From Candidatus Methylomirabilota bacterium (lineage in GTDB: Bacteria; Methylomirabilota; Methylomirabilia; Rokubacteriales; CSP1-6), in assembly GCA_036002485.1 (NCBI GenBank), contig DASYTI010000057.1, positions 1 through 50,117 on the forward strand: DNA of 50,117 bases. The letters are read 5' to 3'. Below the pieces are notes generated by a model that worked only from the letters and a program-made list of their open reading frames with translations, searched no databases and was not told the DNA's origin. Shown here one piece after another: positions 2,615-48,120 of the stretch. Positions within the stretch are counted from its first letter, which is position 1; the number at the start of each line of letters is the position of its first letter. Made by a program: the position numbers and the translations under genes.

Positions 2615-2738
2615 ACTAACTCAGCCCTCGCCTCGCGGCTCTGCCGCTCAGCTCGAACTACGGCCCTCTCCCCCTCCTGGGGAGAGGGTTCAAAAGTCTC
2701 CCTCTCCCTTCCAGGGAGAGGGCCGGGGTGAGGGTGGC
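2615..2738. repeat. Composite palindromic repeat (arm plus two hairpins)
   Basis: From left to right there is an arm reading ACTCAGCCCTCGCCTCGCGG with a following GCTCAGCTCGAAC, then two CCCTCTCC...GGAGAGGG hairpins, then GGGGTGAGGGTGG. The first arm matches the left arm of the 215-bp palindrome at 20640-20854. The whole unit is the reverse complement of the unit at 45116-45257. It fills the gap between the cysteine dioxygenase-like and enolase-superfamily genes and may terminate the upstream operon. Confidence 0.75.
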
Positions 2739-10945: not shown

Positions 10946-11500
10946 GTGATCCGGCCCCGTCCATGGGCAGGGTGGGTGCTCGTCCTGGCGCTTCTGACCC
11001 CCGCTTCCCGCCCGGCTCTTGCCTCCCACGCCCAGCATCCTCCGGAGGTTGGATTCACCTGTCCTGGGCTGGTCCGCTTCTCTCCCCATGGCGGCGCCGA
11101 GGCCCTCGTCGTCGACACCCTCGGCCAGGCCCGCGTCACCGTGCACATCGCCATCTACGGGTTGACGAGCCGCAAGATCGAGCAGGCGCTGCTGGACCTT
11201 GCCCAGGCCGGCGTGCGCGTATCCATCAAATCCGACCATGTCCAGAGCGCGGGCAAGGCTCAAGGGGCACTCCTGTCACGACTGCGCGCGGCCGGCATAG
11301 AGGTGGAGGTCTCGCGTGTCGGGCGACTGCTCCACGATAAGTTCGCGGTGGTGGACGGTCGCTGGGTCATCACCGGGAGCTTCAACTGGACCGAGGGAGC
11401 GGAGCGCCGCAACCGGGAGAATGTCCTGGCCCTCGATTGCCCGGCCCTGGCCCAGGCCTTCGAGGCGGAGTGGGAGACGATCCGCCCCGACGACCCGTAG
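10946..11500 (+). CDS. Phospholipase D-like (single HKD) exported protein
   Basis: A 184-residue protein with a signal peptide (residues 1-26, hydrophobic WVLVLALL, then ALA). One HKD motif is present: H-x-K-x4-D in LHDKFAVVDG followed by TGSFNWTEGA. Single-motif members of the PLD superfamily act as dimers and include the Nuc-type nucleases, so a periplasmic nuclease is the simplest reading; a phosphodiesterase on lipid is also possible. It starts with GTG 10946 six bases after a -10 box. The 215-bp palindrome begins one base after its stop and may terminate it. Confidence 0.8.
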   Translation: MIRPRPWAGWVLVLALLTPASRPALASHAQHPPEVGFTCPGLVRFSPHGGAEALVVDTLGQARVTVHIAIYGLTSRKIEQALLDLAQAGVRVSIKSDHVQSAGKAQGALLSRLRAAGIEVEVSRVGRLLHDKFAVVDGRWVITGSFNWTEGAERRNRENVLALDCPALAQAFEAEWETIRPDDP

Positions 11501-11501
11501 G

Positions 11502-11716
11502 GGTCCTGGACCAATTTGCTCGCCAATTCTACTCAGCTCTCGCCTCGCGGCGGGGCCGCTCAGCTCGAAAGGCCACGTTCGCGGTCGCCAGCAGCGCTCA
11601 ACGTACAGAAAGTACGCCTCGCACTGCTGGCTCCCTCGGGCGTGGCCTTTCGAGCTGAGGGGCGTAGCCCCGAGGCGAGGGCTGGGTTGGTCTGGCTCGC
11701 AACTTGGCCCAGGACC
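11502..11716. repeat. 215-bp near-perfect palindrome, copy A
   Basis: The outer arms GGTCCTGG (11502-11509) and CCAGGACC (11709-11716) enclose a long inverted repeat. Inner matching blocks include AGCTCGAAAGGCCACG against CGTGGCCTTTCGAGCT, with CGTAC...GTACG at the centre. It is the same length as copy B at 20640-20854 and shares its layout. The gap 11501-11759 between the PLD-like and M48 genes contains this element and the M48 promoter, and no other gene is seen. Confidence 0.85.
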
Positions 11717-11731
11717 AAAGCTGGGGATTTC

Positions 11732-11761
11732 TTGATCAGGCGGGCTAACCGGCGATAGGAT
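11732..11761 (+). promoter_or_regulatory. Promoter for the M48 metalloprotease gene
   Basis: TTGATC (11732-11737), 18 bases, TAGGAT (11756-11761). The -10 box covers the first possible ATG (11760), so translation should start at the next ATG, 11772, on a very short or absent leader. Confidence 0.45.
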
Positions 11762-11771
11762 GTGGGTTCCC

Positions 11772-12449
11772 ATGCGACGGCGGAGCTTGCTCGTCATCCT
11801 CGTTGTGGCGGTCTGGTCGGCCGGCTGTGCCTCCCTGCCCGCCGGTACCTACTATCCCTCGCCCACGGACCCCAATACGCGCCGGGTGGCGAATATCCTG
11901 CACCGCGCCGCGGTGGCGGCCGGCGACGATCCCACCCGCTATAGCTTCTCCTTCATCAAGAGCCAGCACGCGGCGGCCTATACCGACGAGGACGCGACCT
12001 TCTACATCACGGACGGTCTGGCCAGGCTGCCCAACCCGGTCCTCGAGGCCGCCGTGGCCCACGAGGTTGCCCACGAAGTGCTCGATCACGTCGGGACCCG
12101 GCGGCGCCTGGCCCTGTCGCTCAATGCCGGCTTCGGCACGGCCGGTATCTTCGCGCCGGGCGTGGGACTCCTCGATTTCCTCGTCAATCCGCTGGTGGTA
12201 CGGGCCTTCTCGCGCCAGCAGGAGCTCGCCGCCGACCAGCGCGCCATCGAGATCCTTCGTGCCATGGGCAATCCCACGCCGCGCCGTAGTCTCTCCGAGT
12301 CCTTGCGCGCGGTGGACGCCGTGCTCGTCCGCACGCGCGACGAGGGCGGCAGTGTGCTCGATACGCACCCCACGCTCGAGGACAGGCTCAAGGCTCTCGA
12401 GCCGCTCGAGCCGGCCACCGTCGCCGGAGCTCCGGGCAAGAAGCCGTAG
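11772..12449 (+). CDS. M48-family metallopeptidase lipoprotein
   Basis: A 225-residue lipoprotein. MRRRSLLVILVVAVWSAGC gives a lipobox (SAGC) and a lipid-anchored mature protein. The zinc motif HEVAHEVLDH (HExxH) and the later glutamate in QELAADQRAIE match M48 peptidases, close to the LoiP/BepA-like quality-control proteases of the envelope. A THPTLEDRLKAL motif near the end is typical of the family. ATG 11772 is preferred over 11760 because the latter lies in the promoter and the lipoprotein signal starts cleanly here. It converges on the RDD gene 24 bases away. Confidence 0.85.
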   Translation: MRRRSLLVILVVAVWSAGCASLPAGTYYPSPTDPNTRRVANILHRAAVAAGDDPTRYSFSFIKSQHAAAYTDEDATFYITDGLARLPNPVLEAAVAHEVAHEVLDHVGTRRRLALSLNAGFGTAGIFAPGVGLLDFLVNPLVVRAFSRQQELAADQRAIEILRAMGNPTPRRSLSESLRAVDAVLVRTRDEGGSVLDTHPTLEDRLKALEPLEPATVAGAPGKKP

Positions 12450-12473
12450 TCTGCGAGTCTTCCCGTCCAGTTT

Positions 12474-12980
12474 TCAGGCGCTGAGCCGGTGCTCGATCAC
12501 TATTGGCACTTCAGGCTCGAGCTCGGCCATGGCACGTGCCGACCCCGCATCCACGACTCGCGTTCCCGCCAGCATGTCGGCCAGCCCCCGCCGCTCCCGC
12601 GTCACGAGTATCCCCACATAGCCCAATCCCAGACTGGCCGCCGAGAGAAGGCCACCCAGACAACGGAGGCACGCCGCCCCCACGCCTACGGGGCCGCCAT
12701 CGCGGCGCACGACCATGACGCCCACCGCCATCTTGCCCAGGGTCTGGCCGCCCGCCACGAGCATGAAGACGTGATAGGCGACGTGGAGAGCCACCGCGAA
12801 GACGGGCAAGGCCAGAGCGAGAACGAGAAGCTCGCGGAGATCACGCGGGGCGCCGCGAAGCTCCCACACGCCGATCAAGAGCCACATCGAGCCCAGGAGC
12901 CAGGCGCCGAGCCCGACGAGGCCGTCGAGGAGGTGCGCGGCGAGACGGCGCCAGAAGCCGGCCGCGACCAGCTCCGTCAT
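12474..12980 (-). CDS. RDD-family membrane protein
   Basis: A 168-residue protein with three or four membrane helices. The family hallmark region is partly visible as FWRRLAAHLLDGLVG near the N-terminus and GQTLGKMAVGVMVV in the middle. RDD proteins are small inner-membrane proteins; some are linked to ion transport, but most have no assigned role. The ATG overlaps the stop of the upstream lytic transglycosylase as ATGA, so the two are co-translated. Confidence 0.8.
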   Translation of the reverse strand: MTELVAAGFWRRLAAHLLDGLVGLGAWLLGSMWLLIGVWELRGAPRDLRELLVLALALPVFAVALHVAYHVFMLVAGGQTLGKMAVGVMVVRRDGGPVGVGAACLRCLGGLLSAASLGLGYVGILVTRERRGLADMLAGTRVVDAGSARAMAELEPEVPIVIEHRLSA

Positions 12981-15067
12981 GGCTTGGCGCTCACCGCGGA
13001 TGGAGCGTAGAGTCGACGATACTCTTCCCAGGCGAGCATGACGCGCCGGACGAAGCGGCGGGTCTCGTCGTAGGGGATGAGCTCGACCCACACCTCGAGG
13101 TCCTCGGTGGGCCGGCTCTTCCACCACTCGCGCACGCGCGTGGGGCCGGCATTGTACGCGGCCACGGCCAGGCGGGGCTCGCCGAACTCCTTCATGAGCA
13201 CCCCCAGGTAGGCGCCGCCCAGGGCGAGATTGACCGCGGGGTCGTCCAGCGACTCCTCGCTCGTGGGGAGCCCGCGGCTCCTGGCGAGCGGGCGGGCGGT
13301 GTCGGGCATGAGCTGCATGAGCCCGCGCGCCCCCACGCGCGAGCGCGCCTGGGGGTTGAACGAGGACTCCTCGCGCACCATGGCCGCCACGAAGTACGGG
13401 TCGAGGGCCGCTCGCGAGGCGGCGTCGCTCAGCTCATTGCGCCATCCCATCGGATAGAAGAGATCCCAGAAGGTCCGCGGCACGGACGGCGCGCTCCGCG
13501 CCACGCCGAGGAAGCTCCGCCGAAGGATGCGCAGCGACAGGTAGAAGCGCGATTCCTGGGCATAGGCGGCCGAGAGGGCATAGAGCCGCCGTGGATTGTC
13601 GGCGGACCGCCGCACCATGGAATCCATCTCGTCGTCGGCGTAGTCGCCGAGCCCAACCGCGCGCAGCGCTTCCACGCGCGCCCACGGCGCCTCGGCCTGG
13701 AGGAGCTCGCGAGGATCCGCGGGCAGCGATGCCGCGAGCTGAGCGGAGGCGGGATTGCGACCCGGGCCCGGCTGGACGTGCGGAGCCCGGCGGGAGGCGA
13801 GAATGCCGTAGTAGCTGCGCGGCGCCTCCGCGATGAGCTGAGTGAACTGCCGGGTCGCGGCCTCGGTCTGGCCGAGCTCCGCCTGGGCGCGGCCGATCCA
13901 GTAGGTCGAAGCGTCGCGATACCCCTGGCTGGCCATGCGGACCGAGGAAATACGACCCCACCGCTCGACGGCCTCGCCATAGTCGCCGCGCAGCCACGAG
14001 AGCCAGCCGAGCCGCCATGTCGCGGCCAAACCCTCGTCACTCTCCGGATAGCTCTGGGCCAGCCTGACGTAGACAGGCTCCGCCGACTTGGGCGCGCTCC
14101 CCGCCTCCAGGAGGCGCGCCTTGAGCAGCAACGCCTCCGGCGCCTCCGCGCTCTTGGGCTCGGCGGTGAGAAGGCGGTCGAGCTGCACGATGGCGCCCTC
14201 GCGATTCTTCTTCTGCTGGATCTTCGCCGAGTCGAGGATCCACGGCGCGCGCTTGTCGGCGGGGGCGAGGGCGAGCGCCCGGTTGACGGCGAGCAGCGCG
14301 GCGTCGTCGCGATTGAGGCGGCGCGAGGCTTCCATGACCACGTGAAGGGCGCGCAGGGCCACCTCTGTCGAGGGCCGCTCCGCGAGGAGAAGATCCGCTT
14401 CGCTGCGCGAGGCCTCGGCCGTTCCCGCCGCCACCAGACGCTCGGCGCGCTCCACCCGCTGGGCCGGGGTGGGCGCGGCCACGGGCACGCCGCGGCCCTC
14501 GAGGGCGCGGAGCTCGCGCGCCGCCGCCTCGCCCTGCGGGGAAGCGGGGAGGAGGAGCCACAGCTCGCGGTACGCCGCGGCCGCTTCGCCGAGTCGCCCG
14601 GCATTGGCGAGGGCCTGGGCCCAGGCCAGCCGCACGCGCGGGAGGTCGGGCAGATCCGGGAATCGATCGAGGACGCGGCGCCAGAGAGCGGCCGCCCCCG
14701 CCTCGTCGCCCGCGCGCGAGGCCTGCTCGGCGGCGAGCATGAGCGCGGCGGGCACGGCGCGGCTATCGGGCCACTGGTCGGGGATTTGCTGGGCCACCAC
14801 GCGCGCGCCCGCGGGGTCGCCCAGGCGCGCCAGGCTTTCCGCCTGGTAAAGGAGCGCGTAGTCGCCGATGGGAGCCGCCGAACGCGCAATGTCGGCGAGC
14901 TCGCGCGCGGCCGTCGCCCAGTCGCCCGCCCGATAGCTCTGCAGGGCCGCGGCAAAGCGGTCGCGCGCCTCGGGGGCCAGACGGACAGGTGCGGGCCCCG
15001 CCGTGGACGCGGAGGCGAGGAGCGCCACGAAGAGGATACAGACGACGGCCGTGCACGCGCGCCGCAT
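12977..15067 (-). CDS. slt: Soluble lytic murein transglycosylase (Slt70-type)
   Basis: A 696-residue exported protein. It has a signal peptide (1-24), a long helical superhelix of TPR-like repeats (about 30-530), and a C-terminal lysozyme-like SLT domain. The SLT domain shows the catalytic Glu in VREESSFNP, then GARGLMQLMP and YNAGPTRVREW. The enzyme cleaves peptidoglycan glycan strands with formation of 1,6-anhydro-MurNAc in the periplasm. Length and architecture match Slt70. It sits between the CDP-alcohol phosphatidyltransferase gene (9 bases upstream) and the RDD gene (4-base overlap), in one long minus-strand operon that starts with glnD. Confidence 0.92.
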   Translation of the reverse strand: MRRACTAVVCILFVALLASASTAGPAPVRLAPEARDRFAAALQSYRAGDWATAARELADIARSAAPIGDYALLYQAESLARLGDPAGARVVAQQIPDQWPDSRAVPAALMLAAEQASRAGDEAGAAALWRRVLDRFPDLPDLPRVRLAWAQALANAGRLGEAAAAYRELWLLLPASPQGEAAARELRALEGRGVPVAAPTPAQRVERAERLVAAGTAEASRSEADLLLAERPSTEVALRALHVVMEASRRLNRDDAALLAVNRALALAPADKRAPWILDSAKIQQKKNREGAIVQLDRLLTAEPKSAEAPEALLLKARLLEAGSAPKSAEPVYVRLAQSYPESDEGLAATWRLGWLSWLRGDYGEAVERWGRISSVRMASQGYRDASTYWIGRAQAELGQTEAATRQFTQLIAEAPRSYYGILASRRAPHVQPGPGRNPASAQLAASLPADPRELLQAEAPWARVEALRAVGLGDYADDEMDSMVRRSADNPRRLYALSAAYAQESRFYLSLRILRRSFLGVARSAPSVPRTFWDLFYPMGWRNELSDAASRAALDPYFVAAMVREESSFNPQARSRVGARGLMQLMPDTARPLARSRGLPTSEESLDDPAVNLALGGAYLGVLMKEFGEPRLAVAAYNAGPTRVREWWKSRPTEDLEVWVELIPYDETRRFVRRVMLAWEEYRRLYAPSAVSAKP

Positions 15068-15076
15068 AGTGCGAGT

Positions 15077-15664
15077 CTACCGCAGGGTCAGATCCCGGGC
15101 GATCCGGCGCGTGTAGATGATGCGCTGGACGGCCGTGACATTGGTGAGGACGGCGAGCAGCACCATGATGGGCGTGAGCACGAGGAAGGTGGCGCCCGCG
15201 ATCAGGGCGATGAGCCGCTCGGGGCGCTCCATGATGCCGACCTCGCAGCGGAGGCCGATGGACTGGGCCCGCGCCTTCGTATAGCTGACCATGAAGGTGC
15301 CGGCGAGGGTGGCCATGGTGGCGATCGCGCCCGTGGTGTCGCCGCGCGTCTCGTAGTAGACGAGGATGCCCAGGAGCACGGCCAGGTCCGAGTAGCGGTC
15401 CACCACCGAATCCAGAAAGGCGCCATAGTCGCTGTCGGAGCCCGCGAGCCGCGCCACCGCACCGTCGAAGAAGTCGAAGAGCCCGGCCACGGCAAGAAGG
15501 ACGGCACCCCAGCGCAGCCGGCCGGCGGAAAAGACATAGGCGGCGGCGATGCTCACGCCCAGACCCGCTACCGTCAGGTGGTTGGGCCGGAGGCGCGCCC
15601 GGAAGAGGAGCCTGGCCACGGGATCGAAGAGTCGGTGGAGCGGAGCCTTGTAGTGCCCTAGCAC
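15077..15664 (-). CDS. CDP-alcohol phosphatidyltransferase
   Basis: A 195-residue membrane protein. The full family motif D-G-x2-A-R-x8-G-x3-D-x3-D is present from DGAVARL through GAFLDSVVDRYSD. These enzymes transfer an alcohol (glycerol phosphate, inositol, serine) onto CDP-diacylglycerol in the inner membrane. Similarity in layout to archaetidylinositol/phosphatidylinositol phosphate synthases is suggestive, but the acceptor is not identified. The GTG start at 15664 overlaps the glnD stop by 7 bases. A longer frame upstream exists only as a shadow of glnD and is rejected. Confidence 0.85.
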   Translation of the reverse strand: MLGHYKAPLHRLFDPVARLLFRARLRPNHLTVAGLGVSIAAAYVFSAGRLRWGAVLLAVAGLFDFFDGAVARLAGSDSDYGAFLDSVVDRYSDLAVLLGILVYYETRGDTTGAIATMATLAGTFMVSYTKARAQSIGLRCEVGIMERPERLIALIAGATFLVLTPIMVLLAVLTNVTAVQRIIYTRRIARDLTLR

Positions 15665-18363
15665 GGCTTCAGCAAGGCGTCTTCGAGCGCCCCTCGTATC
15701 CGGGCCATCTCGTCGGAGTCCTCGATGCGCCGGCCCCGCCGGTCCACCACGTAGAAGGTGTCGAAGGCGTGGTCGATATCGGTGGCGATGCGCGCGCTCG
15801 CGATGCTGAGGCCGAGCTTCGACAGGGTGAGGGTGATGAGGTAGAGAAGCCCGACGCGGTCGGGGCACTTGACCTCGACCACCGTATGCGTGTCCGAGAG
15901 GTGATTGTCCACGGAGACCTTGGGCGGGCCGGGCACGGCGACCTCCCCCGCTCTCATACTCTTTCGCGCGGCGAAGAGCGCCTCGATGGGCTGCTCGCCC
16001 AGCACCCCGCGGCGGAGGGATTCGAGGGTACGCCGCCAGCGGGCCTCCTCGGTCACCGCCTCGCCGAAGGGATCATTGACCTGGAAGGTATCGATGGCGA
16101 TGCCGTCGGCGCGCGTGTGGATCTGCGCCGAGAGGATGTTGATGCCGTGGGCGGCCAGGCTGCCCGCGATGAGCGAGAACAGGCCCGGCACGTCGCGCGT
16201 CACGATCACGAGGTCGGAGGAGCCGAGATCGTGGTGATGGAAGAGCTCCGTGGCCACGGGATCTTCCTCCAGGCGCTCGATCAGCCGCAGGTGCGCGGCC
16301 ATCCGCGCGGGCGCCGTGGTGGCGAGGTATCGCTCGGACACCATGGCCAGGTGGCCCGGGACGGCGCGCCGGAGGGCGGGATCGGTGAGCTCGGCCGCCA
16401 CGCGCTGGGTGGCCTCGTCACGCGTCACGCTTTCCGGATGGCCTCCCGTCAGCCGTCGGAGCGCGCCCGAATAGAGCTCCCAGAGGACCTGGGCCTGCCA
16501 GCCCGTCATGACGCCGGGGCCGACGGCCCGCATGTCGGCGAAGGTGAGCAGGTAGAGCATGCGCAGACGCTCCGGGCTCCCGCACATCTCGGCCAGGGCC
16601 TCCACGGTCTTCGGATCATTGACGTCCCGCCGCTGCGCGATGTGCGAGAGGGCCACGTGCTGGGCCACGAGGAAAACCACGTGGCCGGCCGCCTCCCCCG
16701 CGAGTCCGAGTCGCGCCGTCAGCTCCTCGGCGAGGGGGATGCCCTTGGCCACGTGCCCGTGTCCCTTGCCCTTGCCGATATCGTGCAGGAGCATGCCCAG
16801 CATCAGGAGGTCCGGGCGCTCGACCTCGTTGAGCACCTGCGCGATGCCCTGGGCCTCGGCGGAGGCGCCCGGGGCCAGCGCCTCGAGGCTCTCCACGGCG
16901 ATGAGGGAGTGCTGGTCGGCCGTGAACTTGTGGTACACGTCGTACTGCACGAGGCAGGTGAGGGCCCCGAACTCCGGCAGGTAGCGCCCAAGAAAGCCCA
17001 CGTGGTGCATGTTCCGGAGGGTGGGGGCCACCCGCCCCCAGCTCCGACAGATGTCGAGGAAGAGATCTCGGACCTCGGGCGACCGGCGGAAGCGGTCATC
17101 CACGAGATCGAGGGCTTCCTCCACAGCCCGCTCCGCCTCCACGCCGAGCTCGAGCCCCAGCCGGTGCGAGTGCCAGTAGAGCTTCATGAGCCGCGCTGGA
17201 TCCTCGCGCAGGTCGCGACCGTCGGGGTGGACGAGGTGGATGCGCTCGTTCATGACGTAGAGCCCGTCGGCGAGCGCCTCTTGCCGCAAGCGCCGCTGCA
17301 CCGTGCTCCGGCGCGAGAGCGTCTCCTGGCAGCGCAAGATGAGCTGGCTCGACACCCGGTGGACCACGCGCGCGTGGAGATAGTAGTCGCGCATGAACTT
17401 CTCGACGGCGAGGGAATTCTCGTCGCTGGTGTAGCCGAAATGCGCGGCGATTTCCGGCTGAATGTCTCGCGCGAGCACGTCGTTCTTGTGGCCGGAGAGG
17501 AAGTGGAGCTCGTTCCGCACTCTCCACAGGAAGGTCAGGGCCTCGTCGGTCTGCCGCTGCTCGCGCTCGGTGATCATCCCCTTCTCGAGAAGATCACGGA
17601 GGGTGCGCGTGCCGAACTTCGTGGAGGCCAGCCACATGGCGGTGTGGAGGTCACGCAGGCCCCCCGCGGACTCCTTGACATTGGGCTCGCCCATGTAGGG
17701 CGAGCCCCCGAACTTGCGATAGCGCTGGTCGCGCTCGGCAAGCGCCGTCTCCAGGAACTGCCCGAAGTCTTTCCGGTAGACATTGGCCGAGAGCACCTTG
17801 CGGAAGCGCTGGAAGAGCCGCCGGTCGCCCACGAGATACCGCGCCTCCTGCATGGAGGTGCGCGAGGGGAAATCGGTGGTGGCCATGGCCACGCAATCGG
17901 GCAGGCTGCGCACCGAGTGCCCGACGGTGAGACCCAGATCCCAGAGCGTGTAGAGGAGGCCCTGGGTGGCGCGCTGCACGAATGGTCCCATCTCGCCGTC
18001 ATAGATGACCATGAGGTCGAGATCGGAGAGCGGGCCCAGCTCGCCGCGCCCATAGCCGCCGAGGGCCACCAGGACGAGCGGAGCCGGCGCGATGCCATCT
18101 CGCTTGCGGTCGTCCACGGCCAGGCGGAAGAGCGTGGAGAGAAACCCATCCATGAAGGCGGCATAGGCCTGCACCGAGTGCTGCCCCGAGGCGCCCCCCA
18201 GGTGGGCCGCCTTGAGGAAGTCGACATTGGAGGTCAGATGCTGGCGGAGGAGCTCGAGTCGGAGTCGCCGCTTCCGTTCGGCGCGCTCGGTGGCCGACCC
18301 CTCGAAGCCCCGCTCCGCCTGCGCCTCCACGCGCTTCACCTGGCGGAATAGGTCCGTGGACAT
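15658..18363 (-). CDS. glnD: GlnD, PII uridylyltransferase/uridylyl-removing enzyme
   Basis: A 901-residue bifunctional nitrogen sensor. Domain order is nucleotidyltransferase with GGYGRGELGPLSDLDL, linker, HD domain with LMLGMLLHDIGKGKGHGH, then two C-terminal ACT domains (near VTRDVPGLFSLIAG and VKCPDRVGLLYLIT) that bind glutamine. It adds UMP to PII when glutamine is low and removes it when glutamine is high. ATG 18363 is chosen because a promoter with consensus -35 and a -10 ending six bases before it fits a leaderless mRNA; GTG 18411 or ATG 18375 would give a slightly longer form. It heads the operon glnD, phosphatidyltransferase, slt, RDD. Confidence 0.92.
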   Translation of the reverse strand: MSTDLFRQVKRVEAQAERGFEGSATERAERKRRLRLELLRQHLTSNVDFLKAAHLGGASGQHSVQAYAAFMDGFLSTLFRLAVDDRKRDGIAPAPLVLVALGGYGRGELGPLSDLDLMVIYDGEMGPFVQRATQGLLYTLWDLGLTVGHSVRSLPDCVAMATTDFPSRTSMQEARYLVGDRRLFQRFRKVLSANVYRKDFGQFLETALAERDQRYRKFGGSPYMGEPNVKESAGGLRDLHTAMWLASTKFGTRTLRDLLEKGMITEREQRQTDEALTFLWRVRNELHFLSGHKNDVLARDIQPEIAAHFGYTSDENSLAVEKFMRDYYLHARVVHRVSSQLILRCQETLSRRSTVQRRLRQEALADGLYVMNERIHLVHPDGRDLREDPARLMKLYWHSHRLGLELGVEAERAVEEALDLVDDRFRRSPEVRDLFLDICRSWGRVAPTLRNMHHVGFLGRYLPEFGALTCLVQYDVYHKFTADQHSLIAVESLEALAPGASAEAQGIAQVLNEVERPDLLMLGMLLHDIGKGKGHGHVAKGIPLAEELTARLGLAGEAAGHVVFLVAQHVALSHIAQRRDVNDPKTVEALAEMCGSPERLRMLYLLTFADMRAVGPGVMTGWQAQVLWELYSGALRRLTGGHPESVTRDEATQRVAAELTDPALRRAVPGHLAMVSERYLATTAPARMAAHLRLIERLEEDPVATELFHHHDLGSSDLVIVTRDVPGLFSLIAGSLAAHGINILSAQIHTRADGIAIDTFQVNDPFGEAVTEEARWRRTLESLRRGVLGEQPIEALFAARKSMRAGEVAVPGPPKVSVDNHLSDTHTVVEVKCPDRVGLLYLITLTLSKLGLSIASARIATDIDHAFDTFYVVDRRGRRIEDSDEMARIRGALEDALLKPC

Positions 18364-18369
18364 GACGAA

Positions 18370-18398
18370 ACGGTACATGCCGTGGTCAGGGATGTCAA
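18370..18398 (-). promoter_or_regulatory. Promoter for glnD giving a leaderless start
   Basis: On the minus strand TTGACA (18398-18393), a 17-base spacer, and TACCGT (18375-18370). The ATG at 18363 follows after six bases, so the predicted transcription start coincides with the start codon. The -35 box is a perfect match and the -10 a modest one. Confidence 0.5.
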
Positions 18399-18424
18399 AT
18401 CTGGCGCGCACTTGGGCGGCGGGA

Positions 18425-18430
18425 TAGAAT
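18425..18430 (+). promoter_or_regulatory. -10 box for hisC
   Basis: TAGAAT at 18425-18430 lies eight bases before the hisC ATG (18439). No -35 match and no ribosome site are seen. This again fits a leaderless mRNA, and shows hisC and glnD sharing a very short divergent promoter region. Confidence 0.4.
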
Positions 18431-18438
18431 GTCCCACC

Positions 18439-19536
18439 ATGAGGCGGATATGGAGAAGAGCGCTCGAGTCAGTGACTCCATATGAGGCAGGCAAGTCTCT
18501 CGAGGCTCTCTCGGAGGAGCTCGGGCTGCCGGCCATCGTACGGCTCTCAGCCAATGAGAATCCGCTCGGTCCCTCTCCCAAGGTAATCGAGGCGTTGCGG
18601 CAAGAGGCTGCCCGAGCCCACCTCTACCCTGACGGCGGCTCGACTCGGCTGCGAGAGGCCCTGGGCTCCTGGCTCGGTGTGCCCCCCGAATGGCTGATGG
18701 TGGGCAATGGCGGTGACGAGCTCCTCGGGCTGATCGCGCGCGCGGCCTTCGAGCCCGGGGACGAGATCCTCATGACAAAGCCAGCCTTCGAGCCCTATGG
18801 CATCGAGACGCTGCTGGCCGGCGCCATTCCGGTCGAAGTGCCGCTGCGCGGCTATGACACCGATCTCGACGCCATGCTCGCGCGTGTGGGGCCCAGGACC
18901 AAGGCCATCTTCCTCTGCACCCCGCACAATCCGGCGACCACGATCATCCAGAAGGGGACGCTCGACCGCTTCCTGCAGGCCCTGGGCGAAGACAGCCCGC
19001 TCGTGATTCTCGACGAGGCGTACAGGGATTTCTCCGATGACCCGGAGACTCCGGACGGGGTGGCGCTCGCGCGGCGGTTGCCCCGGCTCATCGCGCTCCG
19101 TACCTTCTCCAAGATCGCGGCGCTTGCCGGGCTGCGCGTCGGCTATGTCGTGGGGTCGCCCGACACCATGGGCTGGCTCAACCGCGTGCGCGCGCCCTAC
19201 AATGTCAACCGCTTCGCCCAGGTGGCCGCGGTGGCCGCCCTCGAGGACCGCGCCCATCTCGAGCGCACGCGCGCCCTGGTCCTGGCGGAGCGGCCGCGCC
19301 TCCTTGCGGAGTTCGCCCGGCGCGACTGTCCCGCGCCGCCCTCGCAAGCGAACTTTCTCCTGCCCAACGTCGGGAGACAGTCACGGGCGCTCGCCGCGGC
19401 ATTGCTCAAAGCGGGGATCCTGGTGCGGGACGGCACCGCCGTGGGCTTTCCGGGGCACCTCCGGGTCACGATCGGGCGACCCGACGTCAATGCACGCCTT
19501 CTAGAGATCTGGGACCAGACGCTGGCAGGCGACTGA
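18439..19536 (+). CDS. hisC: Histidinol-phosphate aminotransferase
   Basis: A 365-residue fold-type I PLP aminotransferase. The Schiff-base lysine is K225 in TFSKIAALAGLRVGY. Also visible are SANENPLGPSP near residue 37, TPHNPATT (N164) and LDEAYRDF (D192, Y195), the HisC pattern. It converts imidazole-acetol phosphate and glutamate to histidinol phosphate. The length matches the family. It is not next to other his genes, so it could also serve aromatic amino acids, as some scattered HisC paralogues do. A longer upstream start would overlap glnD and its promoter. Confidence 0.9.
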   Translation: MRRIWRRALESVTPYEAGKSLEALSEELGLPAIVRLSANENPLGPSPKVIEALRQEAARAHLYPDGGSTRLREALGSWLGVPPEWLMVGNGGDELLGLIARAAFEPGDEILMTKPAFEPYGIETLLAGAIPVEVPLRGYDTDLDAMLARVGPRTKAIFLCTPHNPATTIIQKGTLDRFLQALGEDSPLVILDEAYRDFSDDPETPDGVALARRLPRLIALRTFSKIAALAGLRVGYVVGSPDTMGWLNRVRAPYNVNRFAQVAAVAALEDRAHLERTRALVLAERPRLLAEFARRDCPAPPSQANFLLPNVGRQSRALAAALLKAGILVRDGTAVGFPGHLRVTIGRPDVNARLLEIWDQTLAGD

Positions 19537-19574
19537 AAGAGGCCCATCTGCTTCGTTGGCGAGCGCCGCGGCGC

Positions 19575-19637
19575 CCCTCAACGTACGTGGGATTTCGAGC
19601 TGAGGGGTGAAGCCACGAGGCGAGGGCTGAGCGAGAA
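19575..19637. repeat. Truncated copy of the 215-bp palindrome
   Basis: CCCCTCAACGTAC (centre of the palindrome) is followed by TTTCGAGCTGAGG and GAGGCGAGGGCTGAG, the right arm of copies A and B. The left arm is missing. It lies in the 189-base gap between hisC and the cNMP-binding gene; nothing else is seen in that gap. Confidence 0.7.
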
Positions 19638-19725
19638 TTACGCTTCGGGGGCCGCGGCGCTCGCCGCCTCGCATCTGGACCTTTTTGAGCCGCCTGCGAG
19701 TTTTTCGGGGACTGCTAAACCTGGA

Positions 19726-20235
19726 TTAGGTGTTCTCCGCCTGCTCGAGCATCCTGATCCGCTTCGAGAGGGTGACAAGAAGCTTGTAGGTCAGATCGGG
19801 CACGTCGCGCAGCAGGACCTGAAAGTTCTTCCGGTCTATGACGAGCACCCGCAGCGGAGTGGCCGCGCGCACGGTGACCGAGCGCGGGCCGCCATCGAGC
19901 AGGCTCATCTCCCCGAAGAAGTCGCCGGGCTTGAGGAAGTTCCTCCTCTTGCCCGGCTTCTCGACCGCGGCGGTGCCGTCGACGAGCACGAAGAACTCGT
20001 CGCCCGGCTGTCCGGCCCGCGTCAGCGAGGTGCCCGTCGGCACCTCGACCACGCGCGAGATGTCGGAGACCGAGCGGAGCTGCTTCTGGCTGCAGTCGGC
20101 GAAGAGCGGTACCTCCTCCAGATGGGCGACCTTCTCGTCGCGACTCATGCGGGGTCCGGCGGGCTCGGCCCGGCGGAGCGCGTCCTTGAGATCCTGCGGG
20201 ATGGAGCCGTCGAGGATGCGACTGATCAATTCCAT
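19726..20235 (-). CDS. Cyclic-nucleotide-binding domain protein (no output domain)
   Basis: A 169-residue protein whose C-terminal two-thirds is one CRP-type cNMP-binding beta-barrel. The phosphate-binding cassette is seen as FFGEMSLLDGGPRSVTVRA. The N-terminal 35 residues are helical and charged. There is no helix-turn-helix, membrane segment or enzyme domain, so it may act by binding a partner, for example its neighbour. Residues around the cassette are close to consensus (GE and R), so cAMP or cGMP binding is possible but unproven. The upstream coiled-coil membrane gene ends 24 bases before it. Confidence 0.8.
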   Translation of the reverse strand: MELISRILDGSIPQDLKDALRRAEPAGPRMSRDEKVAHLEEVPLFADCSQKQLRSVSDISRVVEVPTGTSLTRAGQPGDEFFVLVDGTAAVEKPGKRRNFLKPGDFFGEMSLLDGGPRSVTVRAATPLRVLVIDRKNFQVLLRDVPDLTYKLLVTLSKRIRMLEQAENT

Positions 20236-20259
20236 GCGATCTCCTCGGGCGTCGGAGCG

Positions 20260-20595
20260 CTAGCGCCGAGGCGCCGTCCGTCCGCCCTTCTTGTCATCTG
20301 CCTGCTTGGCCTGACTTTCGGCTTTGAGCGCGCGCAGCTCCCGCTCGAGCCGCGCGATGCGCTCCTGGCCGAGGGCGGCCTGCATGCGTAGATCTTCCGC
20401 CTCCCGATAGACGCGCGTCAGCTCTCGCTGGAGACGGGCCGCCTCCCGCCGATTGTCCGACCACTTGACCCACAGCACGGCGGAGAGCACGACCAGGGTG
20501 AAGCAGGCGGCGATGAGAAACCATGGCCGACGCGGCGGCCGGTGGCGCTCCCGATGATCGGCCTGCTCATCGTCTGGGGCGTCTCCCCTGCGCAT
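20260..20595 (-). CDS. Small membrane protein with coiled coil
   Basis: A 111-residue protein not recognised as a named family. The N-terminus (1-25) is hydrophilic with many Arg, His and Asp. One membrane helix follows (WFLIAACFTLVVLSAVLWV, about 26-45), then a long heptad-rich helix (about 50-95) and a basic tail. The likely topology puts the coiled coil outside the cytoplasm. The FtsB/FtsL-like layout is common and not diagnostic. It is upstream of, and co-directional with, the cNMP-binding protein. ATG 20595 is chosen because longer starts run into the palindromic repeat. Confidence 0.6.
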   Translation of the reverse strand: MRRGDAPDDEQADHRERHRPPRRPWFLIAACFTLVVLSAVLWVKWSDNRREAARLQRELTRVYREAEDLRMQAALGQERIARLERELRALKAESQAKQADDKKGGRTAPRR

Positions 20596-20639
20596 GTGGT
20601 CCGAGCGTAGCACCGCAGGGTCACTGCCCGCCAGAATTT

Positions 20640-20854
20640 GGTACTGGGCCAAGTTGCTTCGCCATACTAACTCAGCCCTCGCCTCGCAGCTGCGCTGCTC
20701 AGCTCGAACGGCCACGTTCTCGGTCGCCCGCGACGCTCAACGTACATACAGGTACGTAGGCAAAGCTGGCTCCCTCGGGCGTGGCCGTTCGAGCTGAGGT
20801 CGCTAGCCCGAGGCGAGGGCTGAGTTGATCTGGCTCGCAACTTGGCCCAGTACC
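20640..20854. repeat. 215-bp near-perfect palindrome, copy B
   Basis: The outer arms GGTACTGGGCC (20640-20650) and GGCCCAGTACC (20844-20854) enclose a long inverted repeat centred on ACGTAC-six bases-GTACGT. The arm block AGCTCGAACGGCCACG pairs with CGTGGCCGTTCGAGCT. Compared with copy A, several base changes are matched on the opposite arm. The 323-base gap 20596-20918 holds this repeat and a -10 box; no further gene is seen. Confidence 0.85.
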
Positions 20855-20905
20855 CAGAATGTCGTAGCCTCGCGGGTCGCCCCGAGGTTGGCGCCCGGAC
20901 TTTGC

Positions 20906-38618: not shown

Positions 38619-38730
38619 CCCCCTCACCCTCCCCTCTCCCCCTCACGGGGGAGAGGGATCCAAAACGCAGAGAGAAGAGGATTCCAAAAACCCTCTCCCC
38701 CGCCGAGGGGGAGAGGGCAGGGTGAGGGGG
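38619..38730. repeat. Two-hairpin palindromic repeat
   Basis: CCCCTCACCCTCCCCTCTCC leads a first hairpin (CCTCTCCCC with GGGGAGAGG), about 40 AT-richer bases follow, then a second hairpin and the mirror-image outer arm GGGCAGGGTGAGGGGG. The whole is an inverted repeat of inverted repeats. It lies between livG and the binding-protein gene. Confidence 0.8.
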
Positions 38731-44083: not shown

Positions 44084-44138
44084 TCTGGACTATTCATAAA
44101 CGCGTGTTCGTCATCATAGAGGCCCCTCACCATAGACG

Positions 44139-44242
44139 CCCCCTCACCCTGCCCTCTCCCCCTCCGGGGGCGAGGGATCCGAAGAGAGTCTGCAAAATTT
44201 CAATCCCTCTCCCCCATCGGGGGAGAGGGCAGGGTGAGGGGG
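44139..44242. repeat. Two-hairpin palindromic repeat
   Basis: CCCCCTCACCCTGCCCTCTC opens the first hairpin; the spacer GATCCGAAGAGAGTCTGC and AT-rich bases follow; a second hairpin closes with GGGAGAGGGCAGGGTGAGGG. The layout is the same as at 38619-38730. It lies in the gap between the convergent DUF2007 and TatD genes. Confidence 0.8.
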
Positions 44243-44314
44243 CAGACAGAGCCACGTTCATGAACAGTCTCGGCTAGGAGGCTGCTGAGCAGCCTGCGGC
44301 GTTTGCGTGGGCAC

Positions 44315-45115: not shown

Positions 45116-45257
45116 CCCCCTCACCCTGCCCCTCTCCCCCAATGGGGGAGAGGGATGTGGAGAGAACTGAGCTGCGCTTGCCTTGCATCCCTCTCCTCTC
45201 TGGGGAGAGGGCCGCAGTTCGAGCTGAAGGGCGAAGCCCTGAGGCGAGGGCTGAGTG
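45116..45257. repeat. Composite palindromic repeat, mirror image of 2615-2738
   Basis: It starts CCCCCTCACCCTGCCCCTCT, has one CCCTCTCC hairpin, an AT-poorer spacer, a second CCCTCTCC...GGAGAGGG hairpin, then GCAGTTCGAGCTGAAGGGC and GAGGCGAGGGCTGAG. The last part equals the right arm of the 215-bp palindromes. It links the two repeat families in one unit, located between tatD and the membrane-protein gene. Confidence 0.75.
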
Positions 45258-48058: not shown

Positions 48059-48120
48059 CACCCTCGCCCCTCACCCTCGGCCCCCTCACCCTCCCCTCTC
48101 CCCCGATGGGGGAGAGGGTT
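48059..48120. repeat. Single-hairpin copy of the CCCTCTCC repeat
   Basis: CCCCTCACCCTCCCCTCTCC runs into CCCCCGATGGGGG and GAGAGGG, preceded by two further CCCTCACCCTC blocks. This is half of the two-hairpin unit, in the gap between the binding-protein and LivH-type genes of the second ABC operon. Confidence 0.7.

Follow-up and report, generated by a model that had tools for sequence, protein, structure and literature searches.

Two palindromes of 215 nt each, here termed A and B, lie in the window, that is the whole stretch of 50,117 nucleotides from a Candidatus Methylomirabilota bacterium that was analysed. Palindrome A (nt 11502–11716) begins 1 base past the TAG stop codon (nt 11498–11500, plus strand) of a PLD-like gene (nt 10946–11500), and palindrome B (nt 20640–20854) is flanked by divergent genes. 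Both share the same layout, a hairpin termed P whose arms each contain an S module, and both are placed on the minus strand, which in A is the better-folding strand (the GA strand). In A, the P core (nt 11579–11639, minus strand; R1 match, alignment A1) combines a covarying stem with tandem G·A loops and a GTAC apex, and the S modules occupy nt 11532–11569 (minus strand) in one arm and, inverted, nt 11649–11686 (plus strand) in the other. In B, the P core spans nt 20718–20778 (minus strand), with a variant apex in one arm (CCTACGTAC replacing CGAGGCGTAC), and the S modules span nt 20671–20708 (minus strand) and, inverted, nt 20788–20824 (plus strand). A preliminary description of this DNA had reported two near-perfect palindromes of equal length and different sequence at these positions. 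Coordinates, lengths and divergence were confirmed, the two sequences sharing 84% identity when aligned with gaps, and both palindromes fold far better than shuffled sequence (z -13.8 for A and -16.2 for B). They are not near-perfect, since 80 of 107 positions are complementary when the arms of A are paired without gaps and good pairing of the arms of B requires gaps.

P copies without inserts measure about 125 nt and read GTGCCGGGCCAA..GACGAGCCAGACGAGGCCCGAGGGAG-stem-CGAGGCGTACnnnnnGTACGTTGAG-stem'-CGACCGAGAACGAAGTATGGCGAAG..TTGGCCCGGCAC, with ends of the form GTACTGGG...CCCAGTAC in the genus of the window. In this genus the S module, TTCGAGCTGAG-hairpin-GAGGCGAGGGCTGAG, takes the place of the internal loop of P in both arms, in inverted orientation, and the 215-bp length of A and B is due to S sitting in both arms of the 125-bp P. 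Some copies have S replacing the apex loop as well, and in others it is missing from one arm or both. Free S modules are also present in the window, at nt 2620–2657 (minus strand) and 45218–45255 (plus strand). A further palindrome, Q (nt 19525–19697, no strand assigned), has ends unlike those of P (GCAGGC..CTGAAA..), an apex in common with it (CTCAACGTAC/GTACGCYTCG) and an S module within that apex (nt 19594–19631, plus strand); the same site is without Q in four sister genomes. About a dozen Q copies were counted in the window's own genome, and in other families of the class, related copies of Q often adjoin TAG too. In genus g10 (L145, L146, L148, L150) the P loops that S fills in the window's genus hold other, GCGAGC-rich modules, flanked in places by ATGGC repeats. 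A separate family of intergenic inverted repeats, CCCCCTCACCCTGCCCTCTCCCCC..GGGGGAGAGGG, occurs in the window at nt 2663–2695, 38619–38730, 44138–44246 and 48077–48118, and S adjoins one of its copies.

When palindrome A was used as query, 113 matching pieces were retrieved from the own genome (G000, a Rokubacteria MAG of 4.45 Mb in 253 contigs), 16 of which, A included, span more than 200 of the 241 query bases. A and B are two of about 50 copies of P in this genome. A covariance model built from 57 P cores gave at least 49 matches there, and it detected the core in 62 of the 95 class genomes examined (the own genome among them), belonging to 27 of 33 genera; as 56 candidates were scored per genome, these counts are lower bounds. 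A match to palindrome A itself was found in 13/60 genomes searched (own included), among them all four congeners, and a pattern search for the P core in a species collection returned 32 stretches, every one from Candidatus Rokubacteria or Rokuibacteriota. No Rfam family matches P at gathering score, no match to the P family was found in phage, plasmid and viral contig collections, and a literature search, mostly of title-level listings, found none that describes repeats of this kind from Rokubacteria or Methylomirabilota. The copies whose collection the preliminary description had proposed exclude a single recent duplication as the source of A and B, because the family is class-wide. A and B represent a small mobile DNA hairpin that carries no gene and has spread through a whole class of bacteria known from soil and groundwater but not from culture.

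Empty sites, also proposed in that description, were found for both palindromes. Site A is empty in genome G004; at site B three sister genomes have the empty allele (CGCCAGAATTTGCTAGAG) and a fourth has a Q palindrome. In sister genome G003 (L064, nt 1000–1480) Q lies at the CTAG of the promoter region where the window has B. Nearly the same spot is thus taken by two different palindromes. When 17 further own-genome sites were searched in four congeners, eight of them (L004, L009, L015, L024, L025, L086, L088 and L089) had an allele in a sister genome that runs across the junction and lacks the element. The A/B subtype gives weak evidence for target duplication: direct repeats score at least 6 in 4 of 44 copies versus 0.35 expected, and no duplication is general. 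Palindrome B is flanked by CCAGAATTTG/CCAGAATGTC, followed by extra bases absent from the sister genomes. These, about 39 bases to the right of B (nt 20855–20893) missing from three sister genomes, begin by repeating the left flank imperfectly.

In other genera P is extended on its left by about 48 nt, and these relatives, designated E-P, read CTAG-TGCGCCTCCAACGAG...P...CCGGCA-CTAG. Their length from CTA to the next CTA is about 175 bp (172–174 in copies without modules). The left end (GTGC-GCCT-CCAAC) and the right end (GTGC-CGGG-CCAAC) have in common the terminal inverted repeat GTGC-N4-CCAAC; in the A/B type the inverted repeat runs over the whole element. Empty alleles of E-P carry one TA, mostly within CTAG, versus two in the occupied allele, in 17 of 20 alignments picked from spanning hits and covering 11 sites. 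Of 39 elements with this right end, a set chosen by a CACTA-like end in which some elements represent one site in several sister genomes, 36 have there a stop codon (TAG, in one case TAA) that closes an open frame of 80 or more codons approaching from the right; the left CTAG closes such a frame in 9/18. In a stricter set (at least 600 bp of flank, 150 codons) the stop contact was found in 18/22 elements on the right and 8/22 on the left. The orientation of E-P is strongly biased despite the symmetry of CTAG, a bias that plain IS630 insertion does not predict; REP-like targeting of single-stranded DNA or selection for a 3' element could be its cause. No stop-codon bias was seen in A/B-type copies (12/36 right, 19/36 left), and P-only copies show no bias either. 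In genomes of family f5 (L180, L181, L183, L188), with 0–3 P copies each, the left extension of P is of about 60 nt, conserved and peculiar to the family, and P likewise ends in CTAG at stop codons.

The covariation test that the preliminary description had recommended showed a stem that covaries far beyond controls. In the 57 distinct P cores 96.7% of the stem cells are paired versus 85.3% in shuffles, and 143 cells are changed on both sides versus 46 +/- 9.7. Because the rows are related copies, shuffling somewhat exaggerates significance; a control with slid partners, which retains relatedness, gave 24–46% paired. The S hairpin covaries as well, with 24 cells changed on both sides versus 7.8 +/- 2.0 in the 66 copies of length 37 among 93 S copies. 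As for the two paired changes between A and B on which the preliminary description had relied, one is real and the other a chance match. The outer one is general in the A/B subtype: in its 44 copies (from 77 rows, the others being 26 of the CACTA-end type and seven that were dropped), outer-stem position 2 is paired in 95% and position 3 in 98%, versus 66% and 48% when arms are paired across copies. This pairing ends past position 5, and inverted copying of the host flank into the stem was on this ground rejected as a general process. The inner one (AAAGG/CCTTT versus AACGG/CCGTT) is a coincidence of A and B, the only two of 31 copies with both S modules in which both bases match. Matched bases in these copies number 11/62 versus 19.0 +/- 3.4 when permuted; facing module bases of the two arms thus match below chance, as though full pairing of an arm were selected against or otherwise avoided. 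Fewer matches than chance argue against arm-to-arm copying, and so do the S modules themselves, which are less alike within one copy (20.5) than between different copies (21.7), so that arm copying is not what preserves the palindrome. Arm-to-arm conversion was accordingly rejected. It had been proposed that the fold is kept by selection or by a copying mechanism; the keeping of the fold stands, the copying between arms does not.

In the P core, three tandem G·A mismatch columns are retained in 54–56 of the 57 cores, and copying between arms would have erased such near-invariant mismatches. Two G·T wobbles are almost invariant, and the GA strand of the cores contains 134 G·T pair cells versus 9 A·C (28 versus 9 without the two fixed G·T pairs). 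This strand folds lower than its complement in 33/33 short copies (mean -79.1 versus -66.6 kcal/mol) and in 74/77 of all copies, which a symmetric cruciform fails to account for. The gap is small in palindromes A (-164.9 versus -161.5) and B (-159.7 versus -157.2), and the Q palindrome of the window has no strand difference in folding. The stem changes freely yet stays paired and the mismatched loops hardly change, so that evolution seems to keep the folded shape and not merely a copied repeat. Covariation, mismatch conservation and strand asymmetry together point to a single strand of P as the working form, which most likely acts as RNA and less likely as single-stranded DNA.

A mobilising enzyme was sought. 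The REP-type (Y1) transposase suggested in the preliminary description gave no hit in the own genome, and Y1 genes are present in 25/60 genomes. Y1_Tnp hits numbered 0 in G000, G001 and G003, where gaps of the MAGs may play a part, and the genomes with 8–10 Y1 genes (G041, G053, G054) have 0–3 P copies. DDE_3 (IS630 family) was likewise without a hit in the own genome and present in 32/60 genomes. Since MAG assemblies lose repeated IS copies, a missing transposase in G000 is weak evidence. An autonomous element bounded by P ends was not found in the own genome either, neither as a distant pair nor as a lone end, each P end (0 or 1 mismatch) having its partner on the opposite strand no more than about 370 bp away. 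Among 35 IS630 loci inspected, eight have ends starting with GTG and CTA/TAG outside, and a single one has ends matching those of E-P (GTGC-N4-CCAAC). This is the element at L261 of G038, a genome of the same order: 1,152 bp long, with 16-bp ends GTGCTGTTCCAACTTA, lying between two CTAGs and with its HTH and DDE_3 parts split over two frames. The likeness of the E-P ends to these, a match picked from 35 loci, may be read as suggestive only. In the first 27 Y1 and IS630 loci, nearby similarity to P or E ends was at chance level only, and the 172 kb of G038 surveyed contained no P copy (best E 0.077). IS630 prefers TA within CTAG, according to the title of a reference listed in PMC2170065.

Several other accounts of these palindromes were weighed. 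That they are shaped by mutation, template switching or inter-arm conversion maintaining the pairing of a functionless sequence, would fit the palindromic arms and the paired changes of the outer stem, but is highly improbable in view of the near-invariant G·A mismatches, the lower likeness of S modules within copies than between them and the G·T/A·C asymmetry between strands. The same fold of the GA strand, its covariation and the contact with stop codons could instead mark a structured RNA gene or an element of 3' UTRs (a terminator or RNA stabiliser) that is dispersed and kept for the host, its spread being incidental; many sites, however, are not shared by sister species, palindrome B lies between divergent genes and Rfam provides no match, so that we regard this account as quite doubtful.

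A giant REP-like element deserves somewhat more attention, although we consider it unlikely. A Y1 (HUH) tyrosine transposase would read the mismatched GA-strand hairpin as single-stranded DNA and cleave at TAG/CTAG, and the apparent CTAG duplication would be the sum of the target and a cleavage site inside the element. According to PMC8266576, REPs are recognised strand-specifically as single-stranded DNA and mismatches in their stem are required, which P parallels, and GTAG REPs often provide TAG stop codons, as described in PMC3733652, which is paralleled in relatives of P. Against it stand the lack of Y1_Tnp hits in G000, G001 and G003, the scarcity of P in the genomes richest in Y1 genes, and a hairpin several times the length of a REP and without a GTAG foot.

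The reading we favour, and hold to be probable, is that A and B belong to a family of IS630-type MITEs whose hairpin is strand-specific and under selection. Its unit, P, would be the 125-nt directional hairpin of a miniature, non-autonomous (MITE-like) transposon. An IS630/Tc1-mariner transposase acting in trans would insert E-P at CTAG, often at a stop codon, with duplication of TA or CTAG, and the A/B subtype would share this mobilisation. In the window's genus the ends would have drifted to their present form and most copies would have acquired S in both arms, reaching 215 bp. The fold would be preserved because the single GA strand works, probably as an RNA hairpin, and not by copying of the arms. 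More tentatively, the sequences may describe a class-wide mobile structured RNA, in which a conserved, directional motif, made up of three tandem G·A platforms with a GTAC apex, is carried to stop codons in fixed orientation by IS630-type ends and hairpin parts are exchanged as modules, the apex being swapped into Q and the smaller S hairpins entering exactly at the loops.

At integron attC sites IntI recombines the folded strand at paired R'/R'' boxes; no boxes of this type were seen by eye in the palindromes. Nested mobile palindromes, in which small hairpin modules are combined within larger repeats, are known from RPE-like elements and BIME mosaics, and P with S resembles them in having small hairpins inside a larger repeat, but differs in that S occupies the internal-loop and apex-loop positions of P, in both arms. 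With REP/BIME elements mobilised by RAYT (TnpA-REP) the P family has in common dispersed, strand-specific hairpins, conserved stem mismatches and a TAG given to neighbouring ORFs. REPs and BIMEs, however, measure 20–40 nt as compared with 125–215 nt, and the P family has no constant GTAG foot, a CTAG/TA duplication and no Y1 gene found in the own genome; membership of REP/RAYT was rejected on the foot and the Y1 gene, the hairpin being of about 125 nt. Like IS630/Tc1-mariner MITEs, the P family is short, non-coding and multi-copy, with terminal inverted repeats, and E-P in particular duplicates TA/CTAG and has ends resembling those of an IS630 element of the same order. Unlike them, no autonomous partner was found in the own genome, the interior is a conserved directional hairpin with a compensated stem, and the hairpin end of E-P faces the gene at stop codons. 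Bacterial MITEs are mostly taken as passive leftovers, whereas here a precise single-strand fold is kept across a bacterial class; if confirmed, the P family would be a clear model for asking if functional RNAs travel with mobile repeats, and what makes the insertions face gene ends in one orientation.
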